Positions 10,900 to 32,836 of a stretch of 32,836 bases of DNA are shown here, piece after piece. The first letter of the stretch is position 1; the number at the start of each line of letters is the position of its first letter. The notes below the pieces were generated by a model. That model did not search any database, was not told the origin of the DNA, and saw only the letters and a program-made list of their open reading frames with translations. Source of the DNA: Pseudomonadota bacterium (lineage in GTDB: Bacteria; Desulfobacterota; Anaeroferrophillalia; Anaeroferrophillales; Tharpellaceae); contig DSCM01000074.1 of NCBI GenBank assembly GCA_011049115.1, positions 1 through 32,836 of the forward strand, read 5' to 3'. A program made the translations under genes and the position numbers.

Positions 10900-11001
10900 C
10901 TAACTTTCTCCTTGAACCGAAGGTCAACCGACGCCTCAAAACCGGCATCGGGTAACCAGGCGGAAACTACCGCAACGATAGTATTTCAATCACCATGATC
11001 A

Positions 11002-14197: not shown

Positions 14198-14299
14198 AAC
14201 AGCTTCCTCCTCTACAAGTTGAATTTTTAACCACGTCTCAACTGTCAATGTATACGGACCAGCGGGGATCAACCGGTCACCCCACCCTGGATGCAGAAC

Positions 14300-14327
14300 G
14301 GTTCGGTCCGACGGACCAAACCGAACC
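14300..14327. repeat. Intercistronic inverted repeat between acyl-CoA dehydrogenase and etfB
   Basis: GGTTCGGT (14300-14307) pairs with ACCGAACC (14320-14327), and an alternative inner stem GGTCC/GGACC is possible. There is no T-run, so it is more likely an mRNA-processing or stabilising element within the operon than a terminator. Confidence 0.5.
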
Positions 14328-14344
14328 ACAACTCCTATCAATTA

Positions 14345-15484
14345 TTATTTCAGCACATTACTGGCGATAACCAGACGCATGACCTCACTGGTACCTTCAT
14401 AAATCTCCGTAATTTTGGCGTCCCGGAAATAGCGTTCCAGAGGATAATCCGTGGTATAACCGTAGCCACCGAGAATCTGAATCCCCTGGGTGGCGGCCTT
14501 CATCGCGGTTTCGGAAGCCATCAGTTTGGCCATGGCTGCTTCCTTGCCGAAAGGCAGCCCCTGATCTTTCAGATAAGCGGCCCGATGGGTCAGAAGCCGA
14601 GCCGCTTCATAATGAGTCGAAAGATCGGCCAGCATCCACTGAATCGCCTGCAGCTGAGCAATGGGTTTACCAAACTGAACCCGCTCTTTCGCATAAGCAG
14701 TCGCATCCTCAATCGCGGCCCGGGCAATCCCCAGGGCCTGTGAGGCAATCCCGATCCGCCCGCCATCGAGCGTGGTCAAGGCCACCTTAAATCCTTTACC
14801 CATTCCACCAAGCAGGTTTTCCTTGGGAATCCGGCAATCATCAAAAACCAGCTCCGCCGTCGAGCTGCCGCGAATGCCAAGCTTGTCCTCGAGAGTACCG
14901 ACGCTGAAGCCGGGATTGTCAAGGTCAACAATGAAAGCGCAGATGCCACGATGTCCCTGGCTCTTATCGGTCTGCGCGATAACCACCGCATAATCGGCTT
15001 CATTACCATTAGTGATAAATATCTTACGCCCGTTAATAACCCATTGATCGCCGTCAAGCACCGCCATCGTCGACAGATTAGAAGCATCGGAACCGGCATT
15101 GGGCTCGGTCAGCCCCAAGCAGCCAAGTTTGCGCCCGCTGGCCATGTCGGCCAGATACTTTTTCTTCTGTGCTTCGGTCCCGAAAATTTTAATCGGCTCA
15201 CAGGCCAGGGAATTATTAACCGACATGATAACACCGGTCGCAGCACAGTGCCGGGAGATTTCCTCGATAGCAATAGCATAACAGATATTGCTCATCCCGG
15301 CGCCTTCATATTCAACCGGCACACTAACCCCCATCAAACCTAATGCGCCCATTTTCTTGACCGTGGCGGCCGGATATTTATGTTCTTTATCCACCTCCTT
15401 GGCGATTGGTTTAACTTCCTTCTCGGCAAAATCCCGCGCCATCTGCAACATCATTCTTTCTTCATCGGTGTAAGCAAATTCCAT
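14345..15484 (-). CDS. Acyl-CoA dehydrogenase (butyryl-CoA dehydrogenase-like), copy 2
   Basis: This 379-residue FAD enzyme probably oxidises butyryl-CoA to crotonyl-CoA, with electrons going to EtfAB. It has LGCLGLTEPNAGSDASN, a GRIGIASQALGIARAA helix and IYEGTSEVMRLVIA, with the catalytic Glu at about residue 363. I start at the ATG at 15484 (MEFAYTDEERMM) because GAGGAAA precedes it and the family begins there; the upstream extension to 15571 looks non-coding. It is flanked by 3-hydroxybutyryl-CoA dehydrogenase and etfBA, the usual setting of a butyryl-CoA dehydrogenase. The 266-nt gap after hbd shows no terminator, so I treat the group as one operon. Confidence 0.92.
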   Translation of the reverse strand: MEFAYTDEERMMLQMARDFAEKEVKPIAKEVDKEHKYPAATVKKMGALGLMGVSVPVEYEGAGMSNICYAIAIEEISRHCAATGVIMSVNNSLACEPIKIFGTEAQKKKYLADMASGRKLGCLGLTEPNAGSDASNLSTMAVLDGDQWVINGRKIFITNGNEADYAVVIAQTDKSQGHRGICAFIVDLDNPGFSVGTLEDKLGIRGSSTAELVFDDCRIPKENLLGGMGKGFKVALTTLDGGRIGIASQALGIARAAIEDATAYAKERVQFGKPIAQLQAIQWMLADLSTHYEAARLLTHRAAYLKDQGLPFGKEAAMAKLMASETAMKAATQGIQILGGYGYTTDYPLERYFRDAKITEIYEGTSEVMRLVIASNVLK

Positions 15485-15750
15485 AACGCATTTCCTCAAT
15501 ACAAAAAAATTATCAGCCATGTACCCGCGGCCGGCAAAAATGATCCGGACTAGCTTCGTAGGCACTGCCACCGACTTCGTTCCCCTTCAACCGTCATCAC
15601 TGCGACGCAGTTCTGTATCCGCCGCAGGCCTCAGTTTTCCAGGCGCCTCGCATTCGAAGTTGTTACTGTGCCATCCCGTTTTTTACGATTTTCAAACGTT
15701 GCCACGGGTTTATTAAGGTTTGTCCGGCACAAAAGAAGATCGCACAAGTC

Positions 15751-16602
15751 TCAGTTGTATTCGTAAAAGCCACGCCCACTCTTGCGCCCCAGAAAACCAG
15801 CGTCAACATATTTTTTCAACAGTGGACAGGGGCGATATTTGGAATCACCCAAGCCCTGATGGAGAACGTTCATGATCGCCAGGCAGGTGTCCAGTCCGAT
15901 CAGGTCGGCCAGGGCCAGCGGCCCCATCGGGTGGTTCATACCGAGTTTCATCACATTATCAATGTCCTCCGGCTTACCGACCCCCTCGAAAAGGCAATAG
16001 ACGGCTTCGTTGATCATCGGCAAAAGAATCCGGTTGGCGATAAAACCGGGATAATCATTGGCTTCACAGGAAATTTTCCCCAGGCGCGTAGAAAGTTTGA
16101 CCACCGCCTCAAAGGTTTCGCCATCGGTTGCCAGACCACGGATAACCTCGACCAACTTCATGACCGGAACCGGATTCATGAAATGCATGCCGATGGTTTT
16201 CTGCGGCCGCCTGGTAGCCGCGGCGATGCGGGTAATTGAAATCGACGAAGTGTTAGAGGCCAGAATCGCCGACGCCGGACAGATACGATCAAGCTGAGCG
16301 AAAATATCCAACTTGATTTTCTCATTTTCAGTCGCAGCTTCAACCACGAAATCTACGTCCTTCATATCCGCCAGCTGAGTGGTCGTCTTGATGCGTCCCA
16401 TCACCGCATCCATCTCAGCCTGATCCATTTTCCCTTTGTCAACCGAACGTTGCAAATTCTTTTTAATAACCGCCAGGCCTTTTTCGACAAAGGCATCTGC
16501 AATATCATGCATCACTACCTGCAGCCCGGATTGAGCGGCCACCTGGGCAATCCCGTTACCCATCTGCCCGGCCCCGACAACTCCAAATCTTTTAATCTCC
16601 AT
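15751..16602 (-). CDS. hbd: 3-hydroxybutyryl-CoA dehydrogenase
   Basis: This 283-residue NAD(P)-dependent enzyme oxidises 3-hydroxybutyryl-CoA to acetoacetyl-CoA. The Rossmann motif [13 protein letters not shown] lies at the N-terminus. The catalytic region shows SNTSSISIT and [17 protein letters not shown] with the active-site His, and the C-terminal domain has [11 protein letters not shown] and LADLIGLD. The start at 16602 has AGGAG six bases upstream and gives the standard length; an upstream ATG at 16623 would add seven residues. It stands between the thiolases and the acyl-CoA dehydrogenase. The hydratase that should make its substrate is not encoded in the window. Confidence 0.95.
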
Positions 16603-16694
16603 ATGCTTCTCCTGAATCAGCAAACCGCCTGCAAAACCTACTGCATACAGGCTGATGAAATTGAATATAACTTAAACTCCAGCCGGCGGCCAGA

Positions 16695-17975
16695 TCAGCG
16701 TCTTTCAACCACCATGGCCGCGCCCTGACCACCGCCGATACAAAGAGAGGCGAGACCACGCTCGGCATCATTTCTTTCAAGAACGTTCAACAGGGTCACA
16801 AGAATGCGGGCTCCGGAACAGCCGATCGGATGACCCAGAGATATTCCACTGCCGTAGATATTGGTTTTATCCATACTAATTCCGAGCTCACGCACACAAC
16901 CAATCGCCTGCGAAGCAAAGGCTTCATTGAGCTCGAAGTAATCGATCGCCTCCAGACCCATGCCGAGCCTTGACAACAGCCGTTTGATCGCCGGCACCGG
17001 ACCCAGACCCATGTACGCGGGATCAAGACCGCCTGACTGGAAACCTTTGATTACAGCTTTAACCTTCAGGCCCATGGCCGCCGCTTTTCCCGGGGTCATC
17101 AAAAGCAGAGCGGCCGCAGCATCGTTAATACCGGAAGCGTTGCCTGCAGTAACCGTACCAGTTTTTTTGAAGGCCGGGCGCAGCCGCCCCATTTTTTCGA
17201 CCGTGGTATCCATCGGCCGTTCATCAATGGAGAACGCAAGCGGATCCTTTTTATGTTGAGGAATCATCACCGGAACAATCTCTTCCGTAAACATGCCGGC
17301 AGCGATCGCGGCCCGGGCCCGTTGATGGGAAAGGGCGCCGAGTTCATCCTGCTCACGACGACTGATACCATAAAGCTCAGCAATATTTTCTGCCGTCAAT
17401 CCCATATGATAACCGTAAAAAATCTCCCACAGTCCGTCATGCACCATCAGGTCGACGGCTTCGACATTCCCCATTCGCGCCCCCCAGCGGGCCGTCGGCA
17501 GGGCATAAGGAATCCGGCTCATATTTTCCATGCCGCCGGCGATTACCACCTCGGCCTCGCCCAGAGCAATCGACTGGGCCGCCAGAGCCACGGCCTTCAA
17601 ACCCGAAGCACAAACCTTGTTAATCGTAAACCCACCGAATTCACAGGGAAGCCCCGCCCGAATCATGGCCTGGCGGGCAACGTTCTGACCTTGCGCCGCC
17701 CCAACCACATTTCCCATGATCACTTCATCGACCTGCAATTCGGTCAGGGCCGATTCCCACGCGCCATATTTACTTCCGATTTCACAATCATGGCCTTGTA
17801 AGGCCTTAGGGCGGGCAGCGGCGACATCGGCTCCGACCTGGGGACGACAACCGATCTTTTCGAGAACATTCCTGATAACGGTGGCGCCGAGATCAACCAC
17901 CGGAATATCCTTAAGGCTGCCGCCATAGGTTCCGATCGCAGTCCGGGTGGCACTGACGATTGCTACTTCACGCAT
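16695..17975 (-). CDS. Acetyl-CoA acetyltransferase (thiolase) with a 34-residue N-terminal insertion
   Basis: This thiolase cleaves acetoacetyl-CoA with CoA, or condenses two acetyl-CoA. All catalytic elements are present: nucleophilic Cys122 (NKVCASG), NEAFA, the His in GHPIGCSGAR and the second Cys in CIGGGQG. The protein is 426 residues rather than about 392. Compared with the neighbouring thiolase, about 34 extra residues lie between IGC (about 43) and ELQVDEVIMGN (80-89), pushing the nucleophile from the usual position 88-89 to 122. The start at 17975 (MREVAIVS) has AGGAG upstream. It is 57 nt after the other thiolase gene, in the same operon. The insertion falls in a surface region before the first core strands meet and should not remove activity. 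Confidence 0.92.
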   Translation of the reverse strand: MREVAIVSATRTAIGTYGGSLKDIPVVDLGATVIRNVLEKIGCRPQVGADVAAARPKALQGHDCEIGSKYGAWESALTELQVDEVIMGNVVGAAQGQNVARQAMIRAGLPCEFGGFTINKVCASGLKAVALAAQSIALGEAEVVIAGGMENMSRIPYALPTARWGARMGNVEAVDLMVHDGLWEIFYGYHMGLTAENIAELYGISRREQDELGALSHQRARAAIAAGMFTEEIVPVMIPQHKKDPLAFSIDERPMDTTVEKMGRLRPAFKKTGTVTAGNASGINDAAAALLLMTPGKAAAMGLKVKAVIKGFQSGGLDPAYMGLGPVPAIKRLLSRLGMGLEAIDYFELNEAFASQAIGCVRELGISMDKTNIYGSGISLGHPIGCSGARILVTLLNVLERNDAERGLASLCIGGGQGAAMVVERR

Positions 17976-18032
17976 TTTCGCATCTCCTATAAGTATGATT
18001 GTCACTGAGCTCAGATAACGGTTCGCTTAATA

Positions 18033-19217
18033 CTAAGCCAGATTTTCTATAACCATGGATACCGCCTCAGCGCCACCCAGACAAAGCGACGCCATGCCAT
18101 AACGTTTCTGCCGACGCCGCAGGGCATAAATCAAAGTAGTCAGAACCCGGGCTCCGGAACAACCAATCGGATGCCCCAGGGCCACGGCGCCACCGTTGAC
18201 GTTGACACGGGCAGGATCAATGCCAAGTGCCTTGATGATAGCCACACTAGAGGTGGCGAAAGCCTCATTTATTTCATGCAGATCGATATCATTGATTGCA
18301 AGACCGGCCTTTTGCAAAACCTTCGGGATCGAATTGATAGGAGCCACCAGAACGTCCTCCAGAGGAACCCCAGCCGCCCCTTGCGCGACGATCCGGGCCA
18401 AAGGCTGTAATTTAAGTTCAGAAGCTTTAGCGGCACTCATGACCAGCATGCAGCTGGCCCCGTCACTGATTTTAGAGGCGTTGCCGGCGGTAACAATACC
18501 ATTACGATCAAAAGCAGGACGCAATTTAGCCAAGGCTTCCAGAGTTGTCGCCCGCGGTCCTTCGTCCGTAACAAAGGCATAAGGATCACCCTTGCGTTGA
18601 GCTATCATCACCGGCAAAATTTCATCGGCAAACAGGTTATTTTCTATCGCGGCCAAGGCTTTGGCATTTGAGTCGATGGAATACTGATCCATGGCTTCAC
18701 GGGTAACGGAAAACTTTTTACTGACCAGCTCGGCCGTATAGCCCATATGGTAATCATTGACCACATCCCAGAGACCGTCATGTACCATGCAGTCGACAAG
18801 CTGACCGTTGCCCATGCGCAATCCGCCCCTGGCCCCAGGCATATAATAAGGAATATTACTCATGCTTTCCATGCCGCCGGCAACGATGATTTCAGCATCC
18901 CCGGCCTTGATCGCCTGTTCAGCCAGCATCACCGCCTTCAAACCCGATCCGCAGACCTTATTAACCGTAATCGCACCGCCGGCCATGGGCAAACCGGCTT
19001 TGATCATGGCCTGGCGACCCGGATTCTGGCCCAGCCCGATGGGCACGACGTTGCCCATAATTACTTCATCAACCAGGTTCTTATCAAGGCCGGCCCTTTC
19101 GATGGCGCCGTTGATGACCAGAGCTCCAAGCTCGGTCGCCGTGAGAGAGGACAGAGCGCCCTGAAAATTTCCGATCGCCGTCCGCAGCGGCGCAACAATG
19201 ACTACATCCTTAACCAT
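18033..19217 (-). CDS. Acetyl-CoA C-acyltransferase (thiolase), first gene of the beta-oxidation operon
   Basis: This 394-residue thiolase has normal length. The nucleophile is Cys89 (NKVCGSG); NEAFATSS and GGAVALGHPIGCSGAR carry the remaining active-site residues. The C-terminal Cys motif reads CLGGAEA where most family members have CxGGG, a small deviation. It may prefer a different chain length or branching from the second thiolase, for instance 2-methylacetoacetyl-CoA; this is inference. GAGGAG precedes the ATG. Its 5' leader contains copy 3 of the dispersed repeat, and no gene-proximal promoter consensus stands out. Confidence 0.92.
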   Translation of the reverse strand: MVKDVVIVAPLRTAIGNFQGALSSLTATELGALVINGAIERAGLDKNLVDEVIMGNVVPIGLGQNPGRQAMIKAGLPMAGGAITVNKVCGSGLKAVMLAEQAIKAGDAEIIVAGGMESMSNIPYYMPGARGGLRMGNGQLVDCMVHDGLWDVVNDYHMGYTAELVSKKFSVTREAMDQYSIDSNAKALAAIENNLFADEILPVMIAQRKGDPYAFVTDEGPRATTLEALAKLRPAFDRNGIVTAGNASKISDGASCMLVMSAAKASELKLQPLARIVAQGAAGVPLEDVLVAPINSIPKVLQKAGLAINDIDLHEINEAFATSSVAIIKALGIDPARVNVNGGAVALGHPIGCSGARVLTTLIYALRRRQKRYGMASLCLGGAEAVSMVIENLA

Positions 19218-20518: not shown

Positions 20519-21712
20519 TCAGACAATCTGTGCTGCTTTCAGATCTGCTATTTCCTCGGCGCTGAGCCCCAGGCCAAGTAGGATTTCATCTGTATGTTCT
20601 CCCAGACCCGGCGCTTGCCGGTGCGCGGAGGGCTTGAAGCCGTCAAGCATCACCGGACAATTCGTCTGCGTAAGATAACGCCCATCAGGCAAAGGAAGCC
20701 GCCAGAACATCCCACGGGACTGAAAATGAGGATCAGCCTGGACTTCGGCCATGGTGCGCAACACCTCACAACAGGTGTCACGGCCGGCCAACAACTCTCG
20801 CCAGGCCTGGGCCGAACGCGCGGCAAACAAAACCTCCAACTCCCTTTTCAGATATTCTTGCCGGGCCGGCTCCTGATGATCACCGGCAATCAGGTCTTCC
20901 CGACCAACCGCAGCGCAGAAATTGCGCCAGAATTTTTCTTCGAGAGCGCCGAGAGCAATTTCCCGCCCCTCTGCGGTCCGGTAGATCTGATAACAGGCCA
21001 GCTGCCCGTTAAAAATCGTCGTATCCGGAGACGGCTCCAGCCCCAGGGCATAATGATATGCGGAAAGCAGAGGCAGCATGCTGACCAAACCATCGGTCAT
21101 GGAAATATCCAGAAAGGCTCCGGGGCCGCCTTTCAGCACCCTGACATAAGCGGCCAGAATCGCGCCGGCCGCGGTCAGAGCCCCGCCGGCAACATCGGCC
21201 ACCTGAATTCCGGAAAGATTTGGGATTTCGCGATTGGCAGTGGTATTGAGAACCCCGGCTTCCGCCATATAGTTAAGATCGTGACCGGCCTTGAAAGCTT
21301 CCGGTCCACTGTGACCGTAACCGGTGATCGAGCAGTAAATCAGTTTCGGCTTCAGGGCGCGCAGTTCCTGATAGCCGCAACCCAGACGCTCCATCACCCC
21401 GGGGCGAAAGCTTTCCAGCAATACATCGTACTCAAGAACCAGCCGACGTAGCAGTTCTCGACCGGAGGTCGACTTAAGATTCAGGGTCAGAGATTTTTTA
21501 TTGCGATTGACCGCTAAAAAAAAAGCGCTGATACCATCTACCAACGGAGCCCAGCCCCGTAAGTAGTCACCCTCGCCCGGGGCTTCAACCTTCAGAACTT
21601 CAGCGCCGTAATCGGCGAGCACCATACTACAGAAAGGTCCCGGTAAAAGCCGGGTAAGATCCAAAACTTTAAGACCCTGAAGAAGATCATATTGAACATT
21701 TTCAGACATCAT
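20519..21712 (-). CDS. Alpha-methylacyl-CoA racemase-like protein (CoA-transferase family III)
   Basis: This 397-residue member of the CaiB/BaiF family begins with LLQGLKVLDLTRLLPGPFCS and the ADYGAEVLKVEAPGEGD strand. Family members are either formyl-type CoA transferases or alpha-methylacyl-CoA racemases. Here His144-Asp145 (AGHDLNY), Asp173 (VADVAGG) and Glu258 (GALEEKFW) occur at the same spacing as His126-Asp127, Asp156 and Glu241 of the Mycobacterium racemase. That favours epimerisation of 2-methylacyl-CoA thioesters such as 2-methylbutyryl-CoA from isoleucine. A CoA-transferase role cannot be excluded by motifs alone. GGAG lies seven bases before the first of two adjacent ATGs. A perfect palindrome occurs 17 nt upstream of the start. 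Confidence 0.85.
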   Translation of the reverse strand: MMSENVQYDLLQGLKVLDLTRLLPGPFCSMVLADYGAEVLKVEAPGEGDYLRGWAPLVDGISAFFLAVNRNKKSLTLNLKSTSGRELLRRLVLEYDVLLESFRPGVMERLGCGYQELRALKPKLIYCSITGYGHSGPEAFKAGHDLNYMAEAGVLNTTANREIPNLSGIQVADVAGGALTAAGAILAAYVRVLKGGPGAFLDISMTDGLVSMLPLLSAYHYALGLEPSPDTTIFNGQLACYQIYRTAEGREIALGALEEKFWRNFCAAVGREDLIAGDHQEPARQEYLKRELEVLFAARSAQAWRELLAGRDTCCEVLRTMAEVQADPHFQSRGMFWRLPLPDGRYLTQTNCPVMLDGFKPSAHRQAPGLGEHTDEILLGLGLSAEEIADLKAAQIV

Positions 21713-21744: not shown

Positions 21745-21759
21745 TTAAGCAAGGATCTG

Positions 21760-21795
21760 AAAAACGGGGTCATTTTCTTCATTATCATGACCCCG
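21760..21795 (-). terminator. Rho-independent terminator of the respiratory operon
   Basis: Nine-nt arms CGGGGTCAT (21765-21773) and ATGACCCCG (21787-21795) enclose a 13-nt loop; leftward the stem is followed by TTTTT. It begins 8 nt past the stop of the hexaheme cytochrome gene. Confidence 0.9.
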
Positions 21796-21803
21796 CCGCC
21801 CTA

Positions 21804-22430
21804 CTATTTTTCCTCTATTTTTTCAAGAACTTTTTCTTTTTCCACCAACTTCACAAAATGACACAATTCGCAACGATCAGCTTTCGTGTCAGCCTGGTGG
21901 CATTCTCCCAGAAAACAGCCCTGCATTCTCGGACGGTTGGTTGCAATCGCGTATTTATCATGGGCTACCGCGTAATGACAGACCATGCAGTCATCAATTT
22001 TGACTTTTTCGGCCTTATAATGCTTGGCATGGGAGATCTTGACAATCCGCGTGCTTTTAACCTCCTGCAATTTAGGAATCTCGGAATGACAGCGTAGGCA
22101 GTTTTCATTCAAAACCGAGCGGCCGCTGTTGTAATGCACCGGAATGATTTTGTCCCGATAATGAACAATCGGATTGCTGCCTGATTCAGGAAAGGCGCCC
22201 AGAGGTTTAGTGTGACACTCATAGCAGGTCACTTTGGCGGCCGGATGAGACTGAGAGGAGTGCCATAGCTCATGGATTGTCGGATGACAACTACGACAAA
22301 GTCCATCATCCTTATCAGTGTAACGAGCAATCGCAAAAAAACCAACTATCACTGAAACCACGATACCGATTATCAAACTGGTCTTCAACCAGACCGGCTG
22401 ATCACTATAGAAGCTGAAATCAATCTTCAT
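21804..22430 (-). CDS. Membrane-anchored hexaheme cytochrome c, NapC/NrfH-like
   Basis: This 208-residue protein has one N-terminal membrane anchor (about residues 16-36) and a periplasmic heme domain. Heme-binding motifs are CRSCH (45), CYECH (69), CLRCH (111), CMVCH (148) and CELCH (187), plus the unusual CFLGECH (172), a CX4CH site, making six potential hemes. It is the last gene of the respiratory operon, 242 nt after the molybdopterin-family subunit; that gap has no clear gene. In sulfate reducers the Qrc complex combines a hexaheme cytochrome with a molybdopterin-family subunit, an FeS protein and an NrfD subunit, the same set found here. It likely exchanges electrons with periplasmic cytochromes. 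Confidence 0.9.
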   Translation of the reverse strand: MKIDFSFYSDQPVWLKTSLIIGIVVSVIVGFFAIARYTDKDDGLCRSCHPTIHELWHSSQSHPAAKVTCYECHTKPLGAFPESGSNPIVHYRDKIIPVHYNSGRSVLNENCLRCHSEIPKLQEVKSTRIVKISHAKHYKAEKVKIDDCMVCHYAVAHDKYAIATNRPRMQGCFLGECHQADTKADRCELCHFVKLVEKEKVLEKIEEK

Positions 22431-22672
22431 ACGCTTTTCACCTAATCACATCCTTCTGCTACGGAGTATCAGCCCAGCAACTTCTTCAAGTGACTGCGGC
22501 TAAACGCCAGAAAGGCACAACTTTGCTGGTTACGGTTCTGTAAAAAAGTCAGCGGCCAAGCCACCGAAATATCCTTAGAGTTTCGGAGATAACCAAGATT
22601 TACAGGATGGTTATTCCACTTTCTCCAACCAATCGACTCAACCCGCCGGTTGAAATTTTTTTGTCGACCCAA

Positions 22673-24976
22673 TCAAACCTTTTTGAGGCGCACCGTCGTA
22701 TCAAGCGTAGTCATGCCGGAATTTTCCCGGTCTCTATCGCTTTTAAAAATACGTCTGATATCAACGCCATTTCCTTTTTCCTGCCACCAGATCGGCTCGA
22801 CCTTATCCCAGGAGCGCAAACGAAAGGAAAATGGGGTAAAATGAATCGGATTATGTATCAGCAACGAACGGGTCATGGGATCACTGTCGGCAATGGCTCG
22901 GGCTTTGGCAACCTTCCCCATCTCCGTATGACCGAGCCCCAGGGCAATCGCCACGCAGGAAGGATGAATGGCTTCGCTGAGCCAGGCTCGTACTTCCAGG
23001 GTACCAGCTTTAGTTTTAACCTGAACCAGGTCACCCTCCGAAATTCCCAGACGAAAAGCCCGCCGAGGATGAATCCACAAGGGATTATCGTGCCTTAACT
23101 CGGATAAATACTTTGAATTGGCCGTCAAATTATCAAGTTCGTGCCAACGGTAAGGAATCAGGGTAAAGTTATCCTCTGCGCTTATTTCCAGGGACTTCGC
23201 AAAAGGTGCAAATTTGCTGATGGTAAGCGATGGCCTCAAATCAGCCGTTTCAAACTTGTCTTGATAGCACTGAAAACCACTGGCCTGCAATTTATGCCAA
23301 GCGATCCCGGCGGCGGCAAATTGAGGGGCAGAAAACTGCTCTTCCAGCCAAGCCTTGAACCTCGGAGCCGCGTTCTCACTCTCACCTGCGAGAACCTTTT
23401 CCAGTTCCAGCACAATCTGGTTGAAATCCCGAGTCTCTCCGACCGGCTGCCGCCGGGTCGCAAACAAATCGAGATTGTTCGCCTTCGCCTGCCGTAAAAG
23501 CAGAATTTCATCAACCAGCTGCGAAACCGGCTGGCGCAGCGAGAGAACTCGACGACCGTCGGCCAGGGGCATATCCGCCACCCCCCAACCCTCAAGTTCA
23601 GTCGCCGCCGGGAGAATAATATCTGCAAAAACCGAAGTTTCAGTGAGATGGGTATCAATTGCCAGATGAAAGGGAACTTTATACGGATTGCGCCACAACA
23701 CATGGGAATAGGGTCCGCTGAAGGTCGCGAAAGCGGGATTGCAGGCATAGCTCAAAACCGCCGGCCGGTTACCCTTGCCTTGCAGCCAGTCGGCAAACCA
23801 GTCCAGTGAAACTCGCTCTCGTTCACGTTGACCGGCACACCGTCCGAGACCGGAGCCCAGTCCGTCCTCTTCGCTGTAATAATACAATCCTCCGGGACGT
23901 CCCAGGCTGCCGAGGAGCACATTCAAAAGTTCTACGGCCGCCGCACTATGCCAGCCATCGTGGGCCGACAGCAATTCCTCATCATAAATCGCCATGGCCG
24001 GGGTTTTACGCGCCATTTCACGGGCCAGATCCGTGATCTGACCTTCTTGCAAACCAATCCGGTCGGCAACCAGGGACGGCTGATAGCTTTTCAGCAGCGC
24101 TTTTAATTCATCGACTTTAAGCCTCTGTCGGGAAAGGGAGCGGGCGTCATAAAGACCACTTTCAAGCAGACAATAAGCCAGGGAGCGGGCCAAGGTCCCG
24201 TAATCAGCCGGAGCCACCGGCAACCAGAGGTCGCTGCGGCCTCCGGTATTGTTTAAACGCCCACTGACGGTCACCAGTCTAGCCCCGTTCTTTACTCGTC
24301 CGGCAATCAGCTGACGCATATCGGTCAACATCTGCGATCCCCTGATATAAGGATCGGCGGCGAAGTTAAGAATGAAACGACTGCCGGCAAAATCACGATG
24401 ACAGCCACTCACTCCATAAAGCTGCAGGCGCAATTTCTTCAGGGCCTGATCAGGCAAATCTTCCACCGCCAGCGCCTGAGGGAAGAGTTCAAGCAAACGC
24501 TCCTCCATAAGCTCGCTGCGCCCCAGTAAAAGGGCCACTCCGGTTCCGCCGGCGGCCTTGTAGGGTGTCAGCTTTTCCGCGATCAGCCGATAGGCTTCAG
24601 CCCAACTGACATTCCGCCATTTACCACTGCCGCGCTCGCCATCTCGTACTTTGGGTTGTAAAATCCGATCCGGATCGTAGAGCCGATCAAGCTGGCCATA
24701 GGCTCGAGCGCAAAGTTTACCTTCATTGAGAGGATGAGCCGGATTGCCATGCAACATCACAATCCGATCCCCTTCTCTATAAGATATCAAGCCGCACCGA
24801 TTCTCACAAAGCCCACAGGTCGTCGGCATTGGATTTCTGAATTTCCTCAGGGTCCTGGCCTGCTGACGATTCCACGGCTTACGATACTTTTCCGCCAGCT
24901 TTAATGTATCCGGCAAGGCCAGGGCACCGCCGCTGACCGCCCCCAGTTTCAAAAAATTTCTGCGATCTATTTTCAT
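22673..24976 (-). CDS. Molybdopterin oxidoreductase-family large subunit (Psr/Qrc-like), Tat-exported
   Basis: This 767-residue protein starts with a Tat signal (DRRNFLKLGA then a hydrophobic stretch). A [4Fe-4S] site follows: CGLCENRCGL near residue 54, with the fourth Cys in KLCARAYGQ near residue 89. The molybdopterin fold is recognisable from WRNVSWAEAYRLI, DLWLPVAPADYGTLARSLAY, HLTETSVFADIILPAATELEGWG and the C-terminal IHPRRAFRLGISEGDLVQVKT domain. Between LYGVSGCHRDF (about 197) and FILNFAADP the segment that normally carries the Mo-ligating Cys, Ser or Asp and following helix is very short, so metal occupancy is doubtful; QrcB is a family precedent without molybdenum. AAGGA precedes the ATG. 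It lies 27 nt after nrfD. Thiosulfate or polysulfide reductase is the alternative reading. Confidence 0.88.
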   Translation of the reverse strand: MKIDRRNFLKLGAVSGGALALPDTLKLAEKYRKPWNRQQARTLRKFRNPMPTTCGLCENRCGLISYREGDRIVMLHGNPAHPLNEGKLCARAYGQLDRLYDPDRILQPKVRDGERGSGKWRNVSWAEAYRLIAEKLTPYKAAGGTGVALLLGRSELMEERLLELFPQALAVEDLPDQALKKLRLQLYGVSGCHRDFAGSRFILNFAADPYIRGSQMLTDMRQLIAGRVKNGARLVTVSGRLNNTGGRSDLWLPVAPADYGTLARSLAYCLLESGLYDARSLSRQRLKVDELKALLKSYQPSLVADRIGLQEGQITDLAREMARKTPAMAIYDEELLSAHDGWHSAAAVELLNVLLGSLGRPGGLYYYSEEDGLGSGLGRCAGQRERERVSLDWFADWLQGKGNRPAVLSYACNPAFATFSGPYSHVLWRNPYKVPFHLAIDTHLTETSVFADIILPAATELEGWGVADMPLADGRRVLSLRQPVSQLVDEILLLRQAKANNLDLFATRRQPVGETRDFNQIVLELEKVLAGESENAAPRFKAWLEEQFSAPQFAAAGIAWHKLQASGFQCYQDKFETADLRPSLTISKFAPFAKSLEISAEDNFTLIPYRWHELDNLTANSKYLSELRHDNPLWIHPRRAFRLGISEGDLVQVKTKAGTLEVRAWLSEAIHPSCVAIALGLGHTEMGKVAKARAIADSDPMTRSLLIHNPIHFTPFSFRLRSWDKVEPIWWQEKGNGVDIRRIFKSDRDRENSGMTTLDTTVRLKKV

Positions 24977-25003
24977 CTCAAAACGTCCTTTTGCAAGACT
25001 TCC

Positions 25004-25903
25004 CTACATCAGGGGAATGGCCTGACCGCCATACACGGTAACGATCCGCATGGCCAAAATACCGACCATATTCATCACGGCGGCGACTACAAGCCAGAAA
25101 TAGCTGCGGCGCATTCCCGGAATCATGACAATTATCATGGGTATCACTTTTCCGATCAGGTTTTCAACGATCACAAACCAGAATGACATCTTGCCGAACA
25201 ACATGAAGTGCGCTACCTCCTGAGCCTCCAGCTTGGAGTACAGGAGAACGCTGTAATCACAAAAAACCAGAAAGAGGTCAACCGCCAACAGCCAGCCCAA
25301 AAGTTTAGCCAGACTACCGATAAGTTCATCATTAATGACTTTTTCGGCGGTAAAAAAACGATCCCGAATCATAATCAGCAGAATCATCATCGAGATTCCG
25401 GAAACCATGGCCGAAAACAGAAAAACGATCGGCATCAGACCGGTATTCCAATAATCTCGCGCGACTCCGAGGGCCAGGATCCAGCCGGTATAACCATGCA
25501 CGGAAAGGGCCATAGGAATGCCGATCAGGCCGAAAATCTTAGTCATTTTCATATTCCCCCTGAACATGAAAATACCGTAGATTATCGAGTTGATCGGGTA
25601 GAGCATCAATAGAAAGGCTCCATATGACATAGCCGATACGGGATTTAAATACACGAAATGGTTCCAAACCGATTTAATCGGCCAGCCGACCTGCATAAGG
25701 AGGAACTGCGGCGCCAGCAGCAACAGGATTACCGCCGCGACCACCCCCATTTTACTGGCCGGTTTAAACTTGCTCATACCGAAGCCGTAAGAAAGCGTGG
25801 AAATCATGAAAGATCCGGCGCTTAATCCCGTACAATAGAAATAGTAAGAGATCAGAAAGGCCAGAGTGGTCTGATATTGAACATCGAAAACTACTTTTCC
25901 CAT
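25004..25903 (-). CDS. NrfD/PsrC-family integral membrane subunit
   Basis: This 299-residue protein has about eight predicted membrane helices and few charged residues in them. It has the NrfD/PsrC pattern with an early FLISYYFYCTGLSAGSFMIST helix. NrfD subunits exchange electrons with menaquinone at a site on the FeS-subunit side, without cofactors of their own. Its start overlaps the end of the FeS-protein gene by 13 nt, and the molybdopterin-family gene follows after 27 nt. The three together form the core of a Psr/Qrc/ACIII-type quinone-linked complex. Direction (quinol oxidation or quinone reduction) cannot be read from this subunit. Confidence 0.92.
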   Translation of the reverse strand: MGKVVFDVQYQTTLAFLISYYFYCTGLSAGSFMISTLSYGFGMSKFKPASKMGVVAAVILLLLAPQFLLMQVGWPIKSVWNHFVYLNPVSAMSYGAFLLMLYPINSIIYGIFMFRGNMKMTKIFGLIGIPMALSVHGYTGWILALGVARDYWNTGLMPIVFLFSAMVSGISMMILLIMIRDRFFTAEKVINDELIGSLAKLLGWLLAVDLFLVFCDYSVLLYSKLEAQEVAHFMLFGKMSFWFVIVENLIGKVIPMIIVMIPGMRRSYFWLVVAAVMNMVGILAMRIVTVYGGQAIPLM

Positions 25904-26517
25904 ATCAGTTTAGCCTCCCGCTTAATCTCCATCGTCGCCGGATCAAGTCCGATATAATAGACTCTTGGACCGGTACCCATTTCCGGTTTCAGGGTGGCCA
26001 CAGCCTCGGTCGCTACTAGTCTGGCCACTTCGCTCTTGGGATCGTTAAGATTGCCGAAAATCCTCGCACTGCTGGGACAGGCCTCAACACAACTCGGCTG
26101 CAGCCCAGCATCCACCCTGGTACTGCAGAAATCACATTTATCGATCATCCCTTTCTGGGGATGAATATATCTGACCTCGTAAGGACAAGCCGACATACAG
26201 TAACGACAACCGACACAAAGATGCGGGTCGACCATAACGATACCGTCCTCGCGTTGCCAGGCGGCATTAACCGGACAGACTTTGACGCAGATCGGATTCT
26301 CACAGTGATTGCAGAGTGTCGGTCGGAAAGCCCGGACAACATCCGGATATCCACCCTTTTCAATTTCCTTGACCCACGCGCGCCAGATCCCCAATGGAAC
26401 ATCATTTTCAATCTTACAGGCGATTTCACAGGTATGGCAGCCGACGCAGCGATTCAGGTCGATTACCATCCCCCAGCGCGGCAGGTTTTTATCTCTTTTC
26501 TGATGCGAATTGGACAT
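25891..26517 (-). CDS. 4x[4Fe-4S] ferredoxin-type subunit (PsrB/NrfC/QrcC-like)
   Basis: This 208-residue electron-wire subunit has four cluster motifs with 16 cysteines: CVGCHTCEIAC, CNHCENPICVKVCP, CVGCRYCMSACP and CDFC followed by CVEACP. It would connect the NrfD membrane subunit with the molybdopterin-family subunit. The protein lacks its own signal and is probably co-exported with the Tat-bearing large subunit. I start at the ATG at 26517, with GAGG six bases upstream; a GTG at 26529 that overlaps the previous stop (GTGA) is a real alternative adding four residues. The family is certain. Confidence 0.92.
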   Translation of the reverse strand: MSNSHQKRDKNLPRWGMVIDLNRCVGCHTCEIACKIENDVPLGIWRAWVKEIEKGGYPDVVRAFRPTLCNHCENPICVKVCPVNAAWQREDGIVMVDPHLCVGCRYCMSACPYEVRYIHPQKGMIDKCDFCSTRVDAGLQPSCVEACPSSARIFGNLNDPKSEVARLVATEAVATLKPEMGTGPRVYYIGLDPATMEIKREAKLIWEK

Positions 26518-26525
26518 GGTTTTCC

Positions 26526-27590
26526 TCACTCGCCTCCTTCTTTACGATAATAGCCGGCCGAGCGGTATAACACGAAGAGCAGGAGCGCCCCGGCGGCTCC
26601 GACCAGCAGAAGTAACACCGATAACCCGTAGAAATTACGCAGACACCAGACCGGGTACTGTTTTTCATAATCAGGATAGAGATGAAAGGGTCCCAGACCG
26701 GCCAAGGAGATCTCCTTTTCCGTGCGTTTAGTGTCATGGCAGCGGGCACAGGGAGCCTCGCTGACTTTTTCGCCGTGAGCCGCTTCACCCTGATGACAAT
26801 CAAGACAATTGCCCCGATCATAATCGAAACTTAAATCTCCTTTGCGATGCGCTTCCAGACGAAAGGTTGAAAGCCGTTCAAGCATGGTTGAAAGCTTCCT
26901 CTCTTTATGACAGACGCCGCAAGTCTCTGTCAGGTTGGCCCGGTTGACCGTGGATTGTTCTATACGAGCACCGAAAATATAGTGCCGGGTATGACAGTCG
27001 TAACAGTTGGGGGCATCCTTCTTCCCGGCCAGTAAAGCCTTGCCGTGTTTGGTCTGCAGATAATAACTATCGGTCATGAGCTTTCTTTTGGGTATCTTGA
27101 TACCTTTTTCAGCCAGTCGTTTCCGGGCTCCAAGAGGAAACAGTCCCTCGCTATCCGAATGACAGGCAAGGCAGTTCACTTTGGCGAAGCCGCTCCGACA
27201 ATGCCGAGCCGCGGCGGCGTCTTCATGACAATCGACACACTCAAGCTTTTGCGCATGCAGGGTTTGCTGATAAATTTTGGCATCAACCTGAAGCAGAGCC
27301 TGGGAACCATCAAGCCGCCCGGAGGCCAGATTAGGTTCCTTGTGACATTTCATACACTCTTCGGTCGTTCTCAGTTTGGGCACCTCAAGCGGTATCGGCA
27401 GCAGGCCATCTTCCTCGAGCATCAGAACCGGCTCTGCAGAGGCATTCGTCAGCGTGGTTGCCCGCACCTGCCCGGCGGGGAAAAGTCCGCCGAGCACCAA
27501 ACTCAGCCCTACACTCCAGAAAAGCCAACGATTCTTCACGCGCAGCCGCCCCTTCTCCGGAACCACCTGCGTTATCAATTTCCTAAACAT
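26526..27590 (-). CDS. Membrane-bound heptaheme cytochrome c
   Basis: This 354-residue protein has an N-terminal signal or anchor (about residues 20-40) ending in a VRATT-like cleavage region. Seven CXXCH motifs follow at about residues 79, 118, 140, 196, 224, 262 and 281 (CMKCH, CVDCH, CLACH, CYDCH, CGVCH, CLDCH, CARCH). A C-terminal membrane helix sits at about residues 320-342 with a positively charged tail. The ATG at 27590 has GGAGG six bases upstream and overlaps the EMO stop by 8 nt; a start at 27629 is less likely. Lying between the ETF:quinone oxidoreductase and the NrfD complex, it could relay electrons between the quinone pool and periplasmic carriers. I do not recognise a named family. 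Confidence 0.9.
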   Translation of the reverse strand: MFRKLITQVVPEKGRLRVKNRWLFWSVGLSLVLGGLFPAGQVRATTLTNASAEPVLMLEEDGLLPIPLEVPKLRTTEECMKCHKEPNLASGRLDGSQALLQVDAKIYQQTLHAQKLECVDCHEDAAAARHCRSGFAKVNCLACHSDSEGLFPLGARKRLAEKGIKIPKRKLMTDSYYLQTKHGKALLAGKKDAPNCYDCHTRHYIFGARIEQSTVNRANLTETCGVCHKERKLSTMLERLSTFRLEAHRKGDLSFDYDRGNCLDCHQGEAAHGEKVSEAPCARCHDTKRTEKEISLAGLGPFHLYPDYEKQYPVWCLRNFYGLSVLLLLVGAAGALLLFVLYRSAGYYRKEGGE

Positions 27591-29562
27591 CCCCAACCTC
27601 CAGGGCTTCCGCAACCAGTTCAACCACATCCTTAACTTTGACGTCCATTTCCCGATTATGAAACTTCAACCCATCTTCAAACATTACCATACAGAAGGGA
27701 CAGGCGGTCACCGCGATTTCCGGATGCTGCGCCAATGCCTGGCCGACCCGGTTATCGTTGATTTTGGTACCCAGGGTTTCCTCCATCCACATGCGCCCGC
27801 CTCCGGCTCCGCAGCAGAAACCACGCTTGTGATGGCGTTCCATCTCCGCCAATTCTAGCCCGGGAAGCTCACGCAAAATCGAGCGCGGCTCCTCATAAAC
27901 CTCATTGTAGCGCCCCAGATAACATGAATCATGATAAACCGCCCGAACCGCCAGAGGACGTTTCAACTGCAAGCGCCCTTCACGCAGCAATTGCGCGACA
28001 AATTCGGTATGATGCATGACATTGTAGTGTCCGCCCAACTGCCGGTAATCTTTCTTCAGAGTGTTGTAACCATGCGGGCACATTACCAGAATATTCTTAA
28101 CGCCGTAAGCGTTCATGGTCTCAATATTTTCCATGGCCAGCGTCTGATAGAGATATTCATTACCCATTTTCCGGGCTGAATCGCCACAACATTTTTCTTC
28201 AGCACCGAGAATCGAAAACGAAACCCCTGCCGCGTTCAGAACCTTGACAAAAGCATTTGTCACCTTTTTGTAACGGTCATCGAAAGAGCCTGAGCAACCA
28301 ACCCACAACAAGTAATCAACCGCACTGTTCTCCGCGAAAGTAGTAACGTCCTTGCCTTTCGCCCAGTTGCCCCGATCAGCCCAGCCGAGGCCCCAGGGGT
28401 TGCTGTTATTCTCGAAATTTTTAAACACGGTCTGGACTTCGACAGGGAAACTGCTCTCCATGAGAACCAGATTTCTTCTCAAATCGACAACCTTGTCAAT
28501 GTGCTCGACGAACATCGGGCAGACTTCCATACAAGCCCGGCAAGTCGTACAGGACCAGACTTCGTCCTCGCTCACATAACTGCCCAGCAAGGGCTTTTCG
28601 TCATCGGGCAGCCCCCAGGTAAGATCTTCTCCGTCTGACCGCCTCTTTTTGATAAGCGCGGCTTTATCGTAAAGACATTGACGGATATCCTGGACCAGCT
28701 TTTTGGGTGTCAACGGTTTGCCGGTGAGATAAGCGGGACAATTGTCCTGACAACGACCGCAACGGATACAAGCGTCGCTGTCCATCAGTTGTTTCCAGGT
28801 AAATTGATGGACATGGGCGACCCCGAAAGTCTCCGAATTTTCCACATCAAGCAGGCTGACGACGCCTTTGGCTCCGGTCGAACGATAGTAGTTATTGAGA
28901 ATACCGCTGATTACATGAAAAAGTTTGGTATACGGCATGGTGCCGACAAGCAGGATGACGGCGTAAAAATGAACCCTCCAGACCCAACCGATGGTCTGTC
29001 CGTCAAAGCCGGAACTGAAGGGAGAAAGGGCGAAGGCAATCAGGGATCCCAGTGGGGCGAACCAGCTTCCTTCCGGAGTGGTTATCGCCAGACGCAGGCC
29101 CTCCACCGCAAAACCGCTGAGAAAAATAAAAAACAGCCAGAGCAAAAGCAGGCCATCCTCGTTCCCTCGTTCGTCAAGACGCTCGGCTTCAAGGACATAG
29201 CGCCGGTAAACCGCCATCAACAGACCGATCAGAGCCAATCCGCCGATCAGATCGAGAACCAGGGATATACCACCAGCCGCCGCAGGTGCCAGAGCAGCGA
29301 TGTGAAGCTGGGCAAAAACCACGGCCAGGAATGGAACCATAAAACCAAAGAAAATGAACAGGTGCATATAGCCGGGCCAGGATTCCTCCATAATCCGGTC
29401 ATGACCAACAACCGACGCGATCATGGCCGCAAAACGACTGCCGGCCTCCCCCTTCCGGCTTTCCGGTTCACCAACCCGCCACCGTGCGATTTTCCTGGCG
29501 CTTCCGTAAAGCAGAAGCACTAAACTCAAACCGATAATCAATGCATCAAGTGAATTCAGCAT
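27583..29562 (-). CDS. Membrane FeS oxidoreductase, ETF:menaquinone oxidoreductase (EMO/EtfD type)
   Basis: This 659-residue fusion protein begins with a NarI-like b-type cytochrome domain (about residues 5-230, six hydrophobic helices, His-bearing segments such as YMHLFIFFGF and KLFHVISG). It continues with two [4Fe-4S] motifs (CIRCGRCQDNCP near 265, CTTCRACMEVCP near 338) and ends with two CCG domains (EEKCCGDSARKMGNE near 458 and RGFCCGAGGGRMWMEE near 583). This architecture is that of the ETF:(methyl)menaquinone oxidoreductase characterised in syntrophic fatty-acid oxidisers. It moves electrons from acyl-CoA dehydrogenase-reduced EtfAB into the membrane. I start at the ATG at 29562; a GTG at 29595 would add 11 residues. 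It is the first gene of the respiratory operon and is co-located with the etfBA/beta-oxidation genes. Confidence 0.9.
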   Translation of the reverse strand: MLNSLDALIIGLSLVLLLYGSARKIARWRVGEPESRKGEAGSRFAAMIASVVGHDRIMEESWPGYMHLFIFFGFMVPFLAVVFAQLHIAALAPAAAGGISLVLDLIGGLALIGLLMAVYRRYVLEAERLDERGNEDGLLLLWLFFIFLSGFAVEGLRLAITTPEGSWFAPLGSLIAFALSPFSSGFDGQTIGWVWRVHFYAVILLVGTMPYTKLFHVISGILNNYYRSTGAKGVVSLLDVENSETFGVAHVHQFTWKQLMDSDACIRCGRCQDNCPAYLTGKPLTPKKLVQDIRQCLYDKAALIKKRRSDGEDLTWGLPDDEKPLLGSYVSEDEVWSCTTCRACMEVCPMFVEHIDKVVDLRRNLVLMESSFPVEVQTVFKNFENNSNPWGLGWADRGNWAKGKDVTTFAENSAVDYLLWVGCSGSFDDRYKKVTNAFVKVLNAAGVSFSILGAEEKCCGDSARKMGNEYLYQTLAMENIETMNAYGVKNILVMCPHGYNTLKKDYRQLGGHYNVMHHTEFVAQLLREGRLQLKRPLAVRAVYHDSCYLGRYNEVYEEPRSILRELPGLELAEMERHHKRGFCCGAGGGRMWMEETLGTKINDNRVGQALAQHPEIAVTACPFCMVMFEDGLKFHNREMDVKVKDVVELVAEALEVGDV

Positions 29563-30081: not shown

Positions 30082-32223
30082 TCAGAAAACTCCCTTGCCG
30101 TTGAAAAACGGTCCGTATTTTCGATCAACTCCTTTGATGTGACCGATCAGCCAGTCTTTGAGAAAAGTCAATAGATCCAGAGAAAGAGTGCTTTGCCCGG
30201 CTTTAAATTTTTTCTGAAAGTCAACCACTTTAGCGACCAGGTCGCGATGCAAAGCGACATGCCTGTCATAATCCGGATATTTGCATTCAACCATCAACCT
30301 TTCCTCATCGGCAAAATGAGTGTTCGTATAATCTACGAGCTCATCCAGGACCTGCCCGGCAACGTCACGACTTTCCCCCCTTTTCATAGCCTTGTAGAGC
30401 TCATTGACCAAAGCCACCAACCGGTGATGCTGCCGATCAAATTCAGCGACCCCGTTTTCAAAACTTGAAGACCAGGGCATCAGATCCGCGATCTCACCAC
30501 CACTTTGAGTTTTTGCGAACGTCGATACGGAATTAGCAACTTCTGCCGGCCGCTCCAGCCTGAAACGCAGAACAATATTTTTCAGCCGCTCGCTGAGCCC
30601 TCCCAAATCGGCGGCGCTGTTGTTGACCTGAGCGCTGCTTTCACTGAGCTCCGCCGCAATCGAGCTGACCTCGGCGATATCGGAAGAGATTTCTCCTGCA
30701 ACCGTTGAACTCTGGGCGATGTTATCATTGATTTCGGCGATGCCATGGGAAGCCTGGGCCACGCTGCCGGCGATTTCCCGAGTGGTAGCGGACTGTTCCT
30801 CAATCGCGGCCGCCACCGTGGTTACAAGTTCACTCACCTCTTCAATAACGCTGCTTACTTCCCGGATTTCAGACACAGTCGCTCCGGTCGAGCCCTGAAT
30901 CTCCTCGATTATCCGGCGAATATCCTGAGTCGCCTCAGCAGTCTGGCGGGCCAGCTCCTTGATTTCGTTGGCCACCACGGCAAAACCTTTACCGGCTTCA
31001 CCGGCCCGGGCCGCTTCAATAGTCGCGTTCAAAGCCAGCAGATTAGTCTGCTCCGAGATATCATTGATCACCGCCGTAACCTTGCCGACCTCCTGCGCAG
31101 CCCGTCCCAGTTCGTCAATTTTTTCCGAGGCCTGCCGGGTGCGCTCCACCGCAGCCAAACTGATTGCGCGGGTTTTCTCGGTGTTCTGAGCGATTTCCGC
31201 CACCGTCGAAGTCATCTCTTCGGCCGCGGCCGCCACCATGTTGACGTTACCGGCGATCGCTTCGGAGGCGTTGGAGACCGAATTCATATTGACGCTCATC
31301 TCTTCGGCCGCGGCCGCTACCGTGTTGCTCTTGCCCGAAGCATTTCCGGAAGCATCGCCCAGTTTTTCGGACAGCGTCGCCAGCTCAGCTGAGGCCAGGG
31401 TCAGCTGTTCCACCCCAGCGTAGATATCTCCAGCGATGACGGTCAACCCATTTTTCATCTCCGCCATGGCCGCCAGCATGCTGCCGGGCCGGGCTCCGGC
31501 GGCGATCTTGACACGCAGATCGCCGTCCGCGATTTTAGTCAGCATCTCATTCATATCCTCGGCCTCACCGCCCATGATGCGGACGAAACCGGAGCGCACC
31601 CAAAAGACTACCAGCAGAGCGATCAGAACCCCGGCTATCGCCACGCCCAGCACCAGAAACTTAACCTGCCCCTGTTTTGTCAGCGCCTTGTGATGCGCAT
31701 CCTTTTCGATTTTAAATAACGCTTCATCTAATCGGGCAAAGACCTTGACAACACTTTGCAGGGCATCTTGGGTCAGGGCCCGATAATCATTTTTTGCACC
31801 TTCTAGATCCTCGGCCTCAATCAGATTGAGGTTAATCTCCTTGATTGATTCATGCAAAATCCGATGCGGTTCTTCAAAGTCTTTCAGAATCGGCGCCAAT
31901 TCCGGGTAGAGCGTTTCAAGTTCTTTCCTCGGTTCACCATAAAGCCACCGGCCAAAATTACAAAGGTGATCGTCGGTTTCGACCTTGATCACAAGTCCTG
32001 GAGTATAATCCTGAAGCAGGGTCTGTTCGACCTCGCCAGTAAATCTGAGTTGATCTATCTCCATTCGTTGAAGCCGGGTAATCGTATCCACTGCCTCCAG
32101 GGAGCGATTCGCCATTCGAGTCATGTCGCCGACCCCAATATAGGCTACAGCGCCGAGCACAACCAACAAACCGCCGATCACAATCAAACCAGAAAAAATC
32201 TGACGACTGAGCTTTAAACGCAT
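30082..32223 (-). CDS. Methyl-accepting chemotaxis protein with periplasmic CZB-like and C-terminal hemerythrin domains
   Basis: This 713-residue chemoreceptor has a first membrane helix (about residues 8-30) and a periplasmic helical domain of about 155 residues. That domain carries a CZB-type zinc motif: His86, Cys88, the NFGRWLYG segment, His120 and His124. A second helix (about 188-208) leads to HAMP and the cytoplasmic signalling domain with its hairpin tip around [28 protein letters not shown]. Residues 590-713 form a bacteriohemerythrin domain with a diiron set: [28 protein letters not shown] and HIKGVD. Hemerythrin tails sense oxygen or redox state; CZB domains sense zinc or oxidants. 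The ATG at 32223 has GGGAGG eight bases upstream; a TTG at 32229 would add two residues. Confidence 0.93.
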
Positions 32224-32836
32224 AACCAAAACCTCCCGCTAAACCAGCAAATAGATATCATACAACTTTTATGGATTGAATTAATCATACCAACCTTGTA
32301 ATTTCCAAACACACCAGCTCAAAAACTAATGGGCTTTCACCTGGGTGGCCGCAATGGCAAACTGAGGGAGAGATTCAGTTCCCGGAGGCTGAAAATGATT
32401 GCCCTCCACTTCCAAGGCTAAAGCTTCTGGTTTTCCCGCGCCCCCCGATGGCTGAACTCGCGCCAGCACGCTCAAAAAGCAGCAATTTTAATGGGCTTCA
32501 GGCGCTGCAGGTGGGGGGACGACGAAATATCGCGAGATCTGACGGAAAAGCACCGAGCACCCTCAAAACTAAAAATGGCTGGAAGTCACCTGGTTTTCAG
32601 CGGCCCGGCCTGAATTCCAGGCGGATCCAAACCTGAGACGATGCGGCTCTATTTTAGCTTATCTGCAAGTCCCCAAGGTCAAAGGTCTTCTTATAGACCA
32701 CCAGGCCATGCTTTCCCGGAACCCGCAGGCCTGAGTCACCCTCCGTCATGACTTAAGTGAGAGCGGTTTTCTGACCGCGGCCCAATAGTTGTATTTATTA
32801 ACACATGGCACCGTTAATTTCCAGCGTTTTATGTTC
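32224..32836. other. Intergenic right edge, no gene supported
   Basis: About 610 bases upstream of the chemoreceptor. Open frames here are short and have no recognisable product. A TATGAT hexamer on the minus strand (32262-32257), 34 nt upstream of the chemoreceptor ATG, could be a -10 element, but no matching -35 is evident and it lacks a sigma-28 signature. I see no RNA gene or clear repeat. Confidence 0.5.

Follow-up and report, generated by a model that had tools for sequence, protein, structure and literature searches.

Anaerobic fatty-acid oxidation poses the central question of how electrons from the acyl-CoA level get out of the quinone pool. A six-gene block from a Tharpellaceae genome bears on it: what is the function of an electron transfer flavoprotein (ETF):menaquinone oxidoreductase (EMO) encoded together with an NrfD-type membrane complex and two multiheme cytochromes? 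The block lies at positions 21804-29562 of the window, which is one entire contig (DSCM01000074.1, 32,836 bp) from a 2.64 Mb draft genome (143 contigs, 97% complete). Among its closest named relatives are Candidatus Tharpella (L051), of the same family, and Candidatus Anaeroferrophillacea (L063), which belongs to the sister family in the order. We propose that the block encodes an ETF-to-cytochrome electron conduit, with electrons passing from acyl-CoA to ETF, EMO, menaquinone, the NrfD and iron-sulfur (FeS) subunits and finally the multiheme cytochromes. Judging from sequence comparisons, we give this reading a probability of roughly 0.6. A first-pass annotation of the same DNA had suggested a role in moving electrons among ETF, the quinone pool and periplasmic cytochromes. 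Our analysis supports this role, and we infer the direction of flow, the physical assembly and the final acceptor.

The six genes were all confirmed where that annotation had placed them. They lie on the minus strand, overlapping or closely spaced, in the order EMO, heptaheme cytochrome, FeS subunit, NrfD subunit, MopB subunit and hexaheme cytochrome. The gene for EMO (27583-29562, 659 amino acids (aa)) overlaps that of the heptaheme cytochrome (26526-27590, 354 aa) by 8 nucleotides (nt), the latter overlaps the FeS gene (25891-26529) by 4 nt, and the FeS gene overlaps the NrfD gene (25004-25903, 299 aa) by 13 nt. Spacers of 27 nt and 242 nt separate the MopB gene (22673-24976) from the NrfD gene and from the hexaheme gene (21804-22430), respectively. 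The terminator expected at the end of the unit was found 3' of the hexaheme gene (21745-21812, an 11-bp stem and a U run, -23.3 kcal/mol, z -3.5). It is not certain to be the single one claimed, as a second terminator-like hairpin (22549-22567, z -2.9), possibly a read-through attenuator, precedes the hexaheme gene in the 242-nt gap. Because this gap is only -4 to 95 nt in relatives of the order, the hexaheme gene is counted as part of the unit.

The identity of EMO, or EtfD-type ETF:menaquinone oxidoreductase, is borne out by its match to the solved mycobacterial EtfD chain 9ojn_A (E 2.7e-114). One EtfD-homologous chain holds an N-terminal NarI-like heme-b membrane domain, two ferredoxin-type [4Fe-4S] sites and two CCG domains (Pfam CCG, Fer4 and Nitrate_red_gam). 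With the published EtfD ligand assignments (PMC13083937), H67 and H216 of EMO align with the EtfD heme ligands H78 and H241, every ferredoxin Cys is present, and the position of the quinone-stacking Phe85 is also Phe. H54, H67, H198 and H216 are conserved across the family together with the cluster Cys residues. The extra conserved His residues 54 and 198 would fit a second heme b, and the EMO of Syntrophus is reported to be a diheme protein (PMC8805022). EMO presumably oxidizes reduced ETF and reduces menaquinone, a function that gains indirect support from the etfBA genes in the same cluster. In domain architecture, heme and FeS ligands, etf linkage and the four His residues fitting a diheme protein, it resembles the EMOs of Syntrophus aciditrophicus and Geobacter and mycobacterial EtfD. 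It differs from these in that it forms a conserved unit together with a multiheme NrfD complex, and in one motif. In all EMOs of the window's order, the first CCG domain ends in CPHG instead of CPHC (near residue 495, the last Cys being replaced by Gly), and this should give the unusual EtfD-type FeS cluster a different set of ligands.

The 13 potential c-type hemes of the first-pass annotation were also found, seven in one cytochrome and six in the other, and all sites are invariant in the relatives. The heptaheme protein has a signal peptide-like N-terminus and a predicted C-terminal membrane helix (residues 308-350). Across 17 sequences it contains seven CxxCH motifs and exactly seven other invariant His residues, and therefore likely carries seven bis-His hemes. 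A fold search with its model, which is poor (predicted local distance difference test (pLDDT) 63), gave no PDB match. The hexaheme protein has an N-terminal membrane anchor, five CxxCH motifs and one CX4CH motif, with all six sites invariant in 20/20 sequences. The CX4CH site aligns with an ordinary CX2CH in Aminicenantes and other lineages, and for this reason its reading as a degenerate non-heme site was rejected. The hexaheme protein shows a weak NrfH-like profile match, and neither it nor the NrfD protein has a useful relative in a PDB sequence search.

The block is not unique to this genome. In 12 other genomes of the order (Tharpellales/Anaeroferrophillales kin), all six genes keep their arrangement, the remaining member contigs ending within the block, and the EMO-linked complex was found in 13/15 family relatives searched and in 6/6 members of the sister family. 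The arrangement recurs in Deferrisomatales-type genomes as thl-hbd-ech-acd-etfB-etfA-EMO-heptaheme-FeS-NrfD-MopB-hexaheme-acd-mcm, one of these genomes being a single 4.2 Mb contig. This conservation and recurrence bear out a single operon-like unit. Candidatus Aminicenantes has a different order, heptaheme-FeS-NrfD-MopB-x-hexaheme-EMO, with EMO last. There (L069:1671-4463 and 9624-10916), the protein encoded between MopB and the hexaheme cytochrome has 430 aa and weakly matches a beta-propeller (PD40), and one of 930 aa that has a CarboxypepD_reg domain is encoded upstream. In a sample of 297 genomes from the phylum, EMO gave a strong match in 160, and an NrfD of the window type occurred in 28. 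Counted from the match positions, EMO lies within 5 kb of NrfD in 17 of these 28, for which the chance expectation is well under one; a contig end hides the neighborhood in three more (G005, G180 and G186).

Linkage of this kind could also be expected if EMO and the NrfD-multiheme complex were independent enzymes that meet only through the diffusible quinone pool, with co-transcription serving supply and no supercomplex being formed. We put this close to an even chance, slightly on the lower side; it bears on assembly alone and is compatible with the electron route favored here. It is consistent with the NrfD-FeS-MopB-cytochrome module without EMO in Chloroflexi, KSB1, Nitrospinota and others, and with EMO-heptaheme pairs found without the NrfD module. 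The recurrence of the linkage across several lineages, the tight gene junctions and the colinearity with dsrMKJOP speak against it. Three observations also weigh against our proposal of a single conduit. Family f20, which has a closely related EMO, carries etfBA-EMO-heptaheme and no adjacent NrfD module, so that EMO and the heptaheme cytochrome may work alone. The hexaheme gene of the window stands apart, behind the terminator-like hairpin. Finally, the two trees disagree: in that of EMO, the window's order groups with the Deferrisomatales-type genomes (100/98), a pairing rejected for NrfD (approximately unbiased (AU) test, p-AU 0.0008), in whose tree the window's order lies near KSB1.

This AU test rejected a shared origin for the EMO-linked NrfD modules found in the window's order and in the Deferrisomatales-type group; a single clade of linked EMOs was not rejected (p 0.2). 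From the conflict between the two trees it follows that there was repeated exchange or recruitment of modules, a pattern that favors functional coupling over inert inheritance. Several loci show the modules in other settings. One genome (G006; L041 and L042) has two six-gene clusters, in both of which MopB is about 45% and EMO 82% identical to those of the window, a contrast pointing to replacement of the periplasmic half. At L080:8559-13860, NrfD-MopB-hexaheme genes occur without EMO, downstream of a gene for the ATP synthase a-subunit; L122 has a similar-sized gene at that place, with a divergent etfBA-EMO nearby. The nearest NrfD relatives outside the order, in KSB1 (L066:6896-17637), are found with ferredoxin-type proteins and an FAD-binding fumarate-reductase-like flavoprotein, and without EMO. 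By its sequence, this locus appears to combine that periplasmic module with another donor in the cytoplasm.

The etf genes presumed to feed the conduit are in the same window. The first-pass annotation, noting that EMO genes are usually neighbors of etf genes, had missed them. A position of EMO far from etf was rejected, as etfB (13418-14341) and etfA (12440-13402; Pfam ETF and ETF_alpha), together the presumed electron donor of EMO, lie about 13 kb downstream of the block on the same strand. In Deferrisomatales-type relatives, etfBA directly precedes EMO. The six-gene block is part of one beta-oxidation cluster that has its own etfBA, all encoded on the minus strand. A CoA-transferase family III gene of conserved position is the first of the downstream genes (20519-21712), and a methyltransferase gene separates it from two thiolases (18033-19217 and 16695-18005). 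These are followed by a 3-hydroxyacyl-CoA dehydrogenase (15751-16623) and an acyl-CoA dehydrogenase (14345-15571), assigned like the thiolases by Pfam and synteny. Beyond etfBA are a second acyl-CoA dehydrogenase (11002-12150) and a methylmalonyl-CoA mutase-type large subunit (9223-10899), both with Pfam matches, and the EMO cluster of Deferrisomatales-type relatives is flanked by such a pair as well. Wherever the contig continues in genomes of the order, the block is followed by beta-oxidation genes. Directly upstream of EMO lies a gene for a chemoreceptor with hemerythrin and zinc-binding CZB domains (30082-32229). Several relatives have a homologous methyl-accepting chemotaxis protein at this place, which suggests linked redox or oxygen taxis.

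The FeS and NrfD subunits are the proposed exit from the quinone pool. The FeS subunit is a ferredoxin-like protein similar to DsrO, TtrB and NrfC (Pfam Fer4_11) with 16 cluster Cys residues, as read from its sequence, corresponding to four [4Fe-4S] clusters. Its NCBIfam score for DsrO is 206.4 bits, above the cut-off of 200, and that for TtrB, 227, is below the respective cut-off. The NrfD/PsrC-type quinone-reactive membrane subunit (Pfam NrfD, 8.9e-33) reaches 63 bits with the DsrP profile and fails its cut-off of 350. The cut-offs of the Qrc families are likewise not reached (QrcB 175/440, QrcC 123/400 and QrcD 51/570 bits). In the trees, NrfD and FeS form well-supported clades of their own outside DsrP/DsrO and QrcD/QrcC, with QrcD and QrcC each a separate, fully supported clade. 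NrfD conserves a quinone-site Ser (S90) as well as Y21, Y102 and R286. Asp70 and Tyr110 of QrcD, both essential in Qrc (PMC13059093), are replaced, the former by Tyr in 81/81 NrfDs, as in the quinol-oxidizing PsrC, and the latter by Leu in 80/81 and Met in the other; their placement relies on a low-identity alignment anchored on D58 and Y99 of E. coli HybB and is supportive only. On profile cut-offs, both trees and these residues, membership in Qrc was rejected.

These residues also bear on the direction of flow. The route could be reversed in the manner of Qrc, with a periplasmic hydrogenase or formate dehydrogenase passing electrons through the cytochromes and the NrfD complex to menaquinone, and EMO and ETF then reducing enoyl-CoA (enoyl-CoA respiration). 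Qrc works in that direction (PMC13059093), Syntrophus EMO is reported as bidirectional (PMC8805022), and the window genome has FdhN-like formate dehydrogenase and NiFe hydrogenase operons. These operons, however, carry their own membrane subunits (an FdnI-like one of 227 aa and a HyaC-like one of 221 aa, named by sequence appearance) and would need no Qrc. With the Qrc-essential Asp and Tyr absent and a full oxidative beta-oxidation gene set flanking the unit, we regard the reverse direction as unlikely.

The MopB-fold subunit has a Tat (twin-arginine translocation) signal, and its model (pLDDT 80) shows a full MopB fold with PsrA (2vpw_A) as the best match. The four N-terminal [4Fe-4S] Cys residues are kept in 72/72 sequences including PsrA. 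The Mo-ligating Cys, Cys173 of Thermus thermophilus PsrA, is absent in 71/71, and no substitute residue is conserved at that site. Conservation across the order's two families is far lower for MopB (43-47%) than for FeS and NrfD (73-85%). In L191 (7712-12789), the MopB gene is gone and the hexaheme gene starts 21 nt after NrfD, with EMO, heptaheme and FeS intact and no etfBA seen. Because the Mo ligand is missing, the [4Fe-4S] Cys residues are kept and MopB can be lost, Mo catalysis does not seem to be the point of this subunit, which is most likely a non-catalytic [4Fe-4S] conductor or scaffold. That MopB instead serves as a terminal reductase (of polysulfide, thiosulfate or another acceptor) for ETF-derived electrons, in line with its best fold and profile matches to PsrA/PhsA, its Tat signal and the two extra cytochromes, is very improbable given the family-wide loss of the ligand, the low conservation and the absence in L191. 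A Psr-type catalytic reductase was thus rejected, and with it the "Qrc/Psr-type" label of the first-pass annotation.

The unit is built of known modules and is neither a Qrc nor a Psr. With PsrABC/PhsABC it shares the closest MopB fold and profile and the PsrC-like Tyr of NrfD, and it differs in lacking the catalytic Mo ligand. With QrcABCD, the cytochrome c3:menaquinone oxidoreductase, it has in common a multiheme cytochrome, a Mo-less non-catalytic MopB, an FeS and an NrfD subunit. It differs in its separate clades, a shorter NrfD (299 aa versus the 408-position QrcD model), two multiheme cytochromes, the linked EMO and the replaced D70 and Y110. QrcB is reported to be cofactor-free, whereas the MopB of the window retains its [4Fe-4S] Cys residues (PMC13059093). 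Cbc4 (CbcSTU) of Geobacter and SirCD of Shewanella are similar as quinol-oxidizing FeS and membrane subunits, with or without a cytochrome, that supply periplasmic cytochromes (PMC11434368), and they lack EMO and MopB.

The closest parallel in gene layout is DsrMKJOP (also Hmc and Tmc). EMO, heptaheme, FeS and NrfD are colinear with DsrM plus DsrK, DsrJ, DsrO and DsrP, although the order agrees at the module level only, M and K being fused as EMO. The differences are a heptaheme protein for the triheme DsrJ, ETF instead of DsrC as the presumed partner, the additional MopB and hexaheme proteins, the position of FeS and NrfD outside the DsrO/DsrP clades, and a window genome with no match for dsrA (sulfite reductase). 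Alternative complex III (ActABCDEF) has a quinol:cytochrome role, a multiheme cytochrome, a MopB-like part and NrfD subunits, all of which have likenesses here. In the window, FeS and MopB are separate (fused in ActB), NrfD is one instead of two, and the operon has no counterparts of ActD and ActE. Since EMO, heptaheme, FeS and NrfD are laid out like DsrM+K, J, O and P, one transmembrane complex with ETF replacing DsrC is plausible. By analogy, we infer a Dsr-like transmembrane conduit with ETF as its cytoplasmic partner, to which a Qrc/alternative complex III-like MopB and the hexaheme cytochrome have been added on the periplasmic side. More tentative, and in our estimate less likely than not, is an undescribed respiratory supercomplex that joins a DsrMKJOP-like part to a Qrc/alternative complex III-like periplasmic half, receives electrons directly from ETF and passes them across the membrane to the 13 c-type hemes. 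No paper joining ETF, NrfD and multiheme terms was found in the open-access literature searched, and an earlier mention of such clusters is possible.

In the proposed ETF-to-cytochrome conduit, the acyl-CoA dehydrogenases of the adjacent beta-oxidation cluster would reduce EtfAB. At the cytoplasmic face, EMO would accept the electrons of EtfAB by way of its CCG and ferredoxin clusters and two hemes b, and reduce menaquinone. On the periplasmic side, FeS-NrfD would oxidize menaquinol and hand the electrons to the heptaheme and hexaheme proteins, and MopB would serve as a [4Fe-4S] scaffold with no catalysis of its own. The two cytochromes would pass the electrons on to periplasmic or outer-membrane cytochromes, and so an extracellular acceptor or partner, or else a periplasmic formate dehydrogenase or hydrogenase.

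Targeted searches and selected stretches of the window genome show genes for MqnA/D-type menaquinone synthesis and complex I-like genes. Elsewhere in it (L160:5161-12621, G000:C51), a second etfBA and an acyl-CoA dehydrogenase adjoin genes for an MtrB/PioB porin and a decaheme lipoprotein, by sequence another ETF-to-outer-membrane-cytochrome neighborhood. Two further loci (L163 and L164) have more multiheme clusters beside possible porins without a Pfam family match. An extracellular or interspecies electron route is plausible in a genome with this MtrB/PioB porin and decaheme cytochrome; the alternative is formate or H2 formation by a redox loop. For Tharpellota, the terminal acceptor was left open and an octaheme relative of hydroxylamine oxidoreductase was proposed (PMC9213671). 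The window complex is a candidate for the step preceding this enzyme.

The unit thus offers a specific route from fatty acids to periplasmic cytochromes that the window's order shares with Deferrisomatales and Aminicenantes. It is also a natural example of dsrMKJOP-like modules being shuffled, here with ETF as the partner in the cytoplasm. If the supercomplex is real, Tharpellota-type bacteria, Deferrisomatales and Aminicenantes would have a conduit dedicated to carrying beta-oxidation electrons to an extracellular acceptor, and it would supply the exit from the quinone pool that is missing in lineages with no known terminal reductase. Such a unit could let some uncultured anaerobes that lack a known terminal reductase export the electrons of fatty acids.

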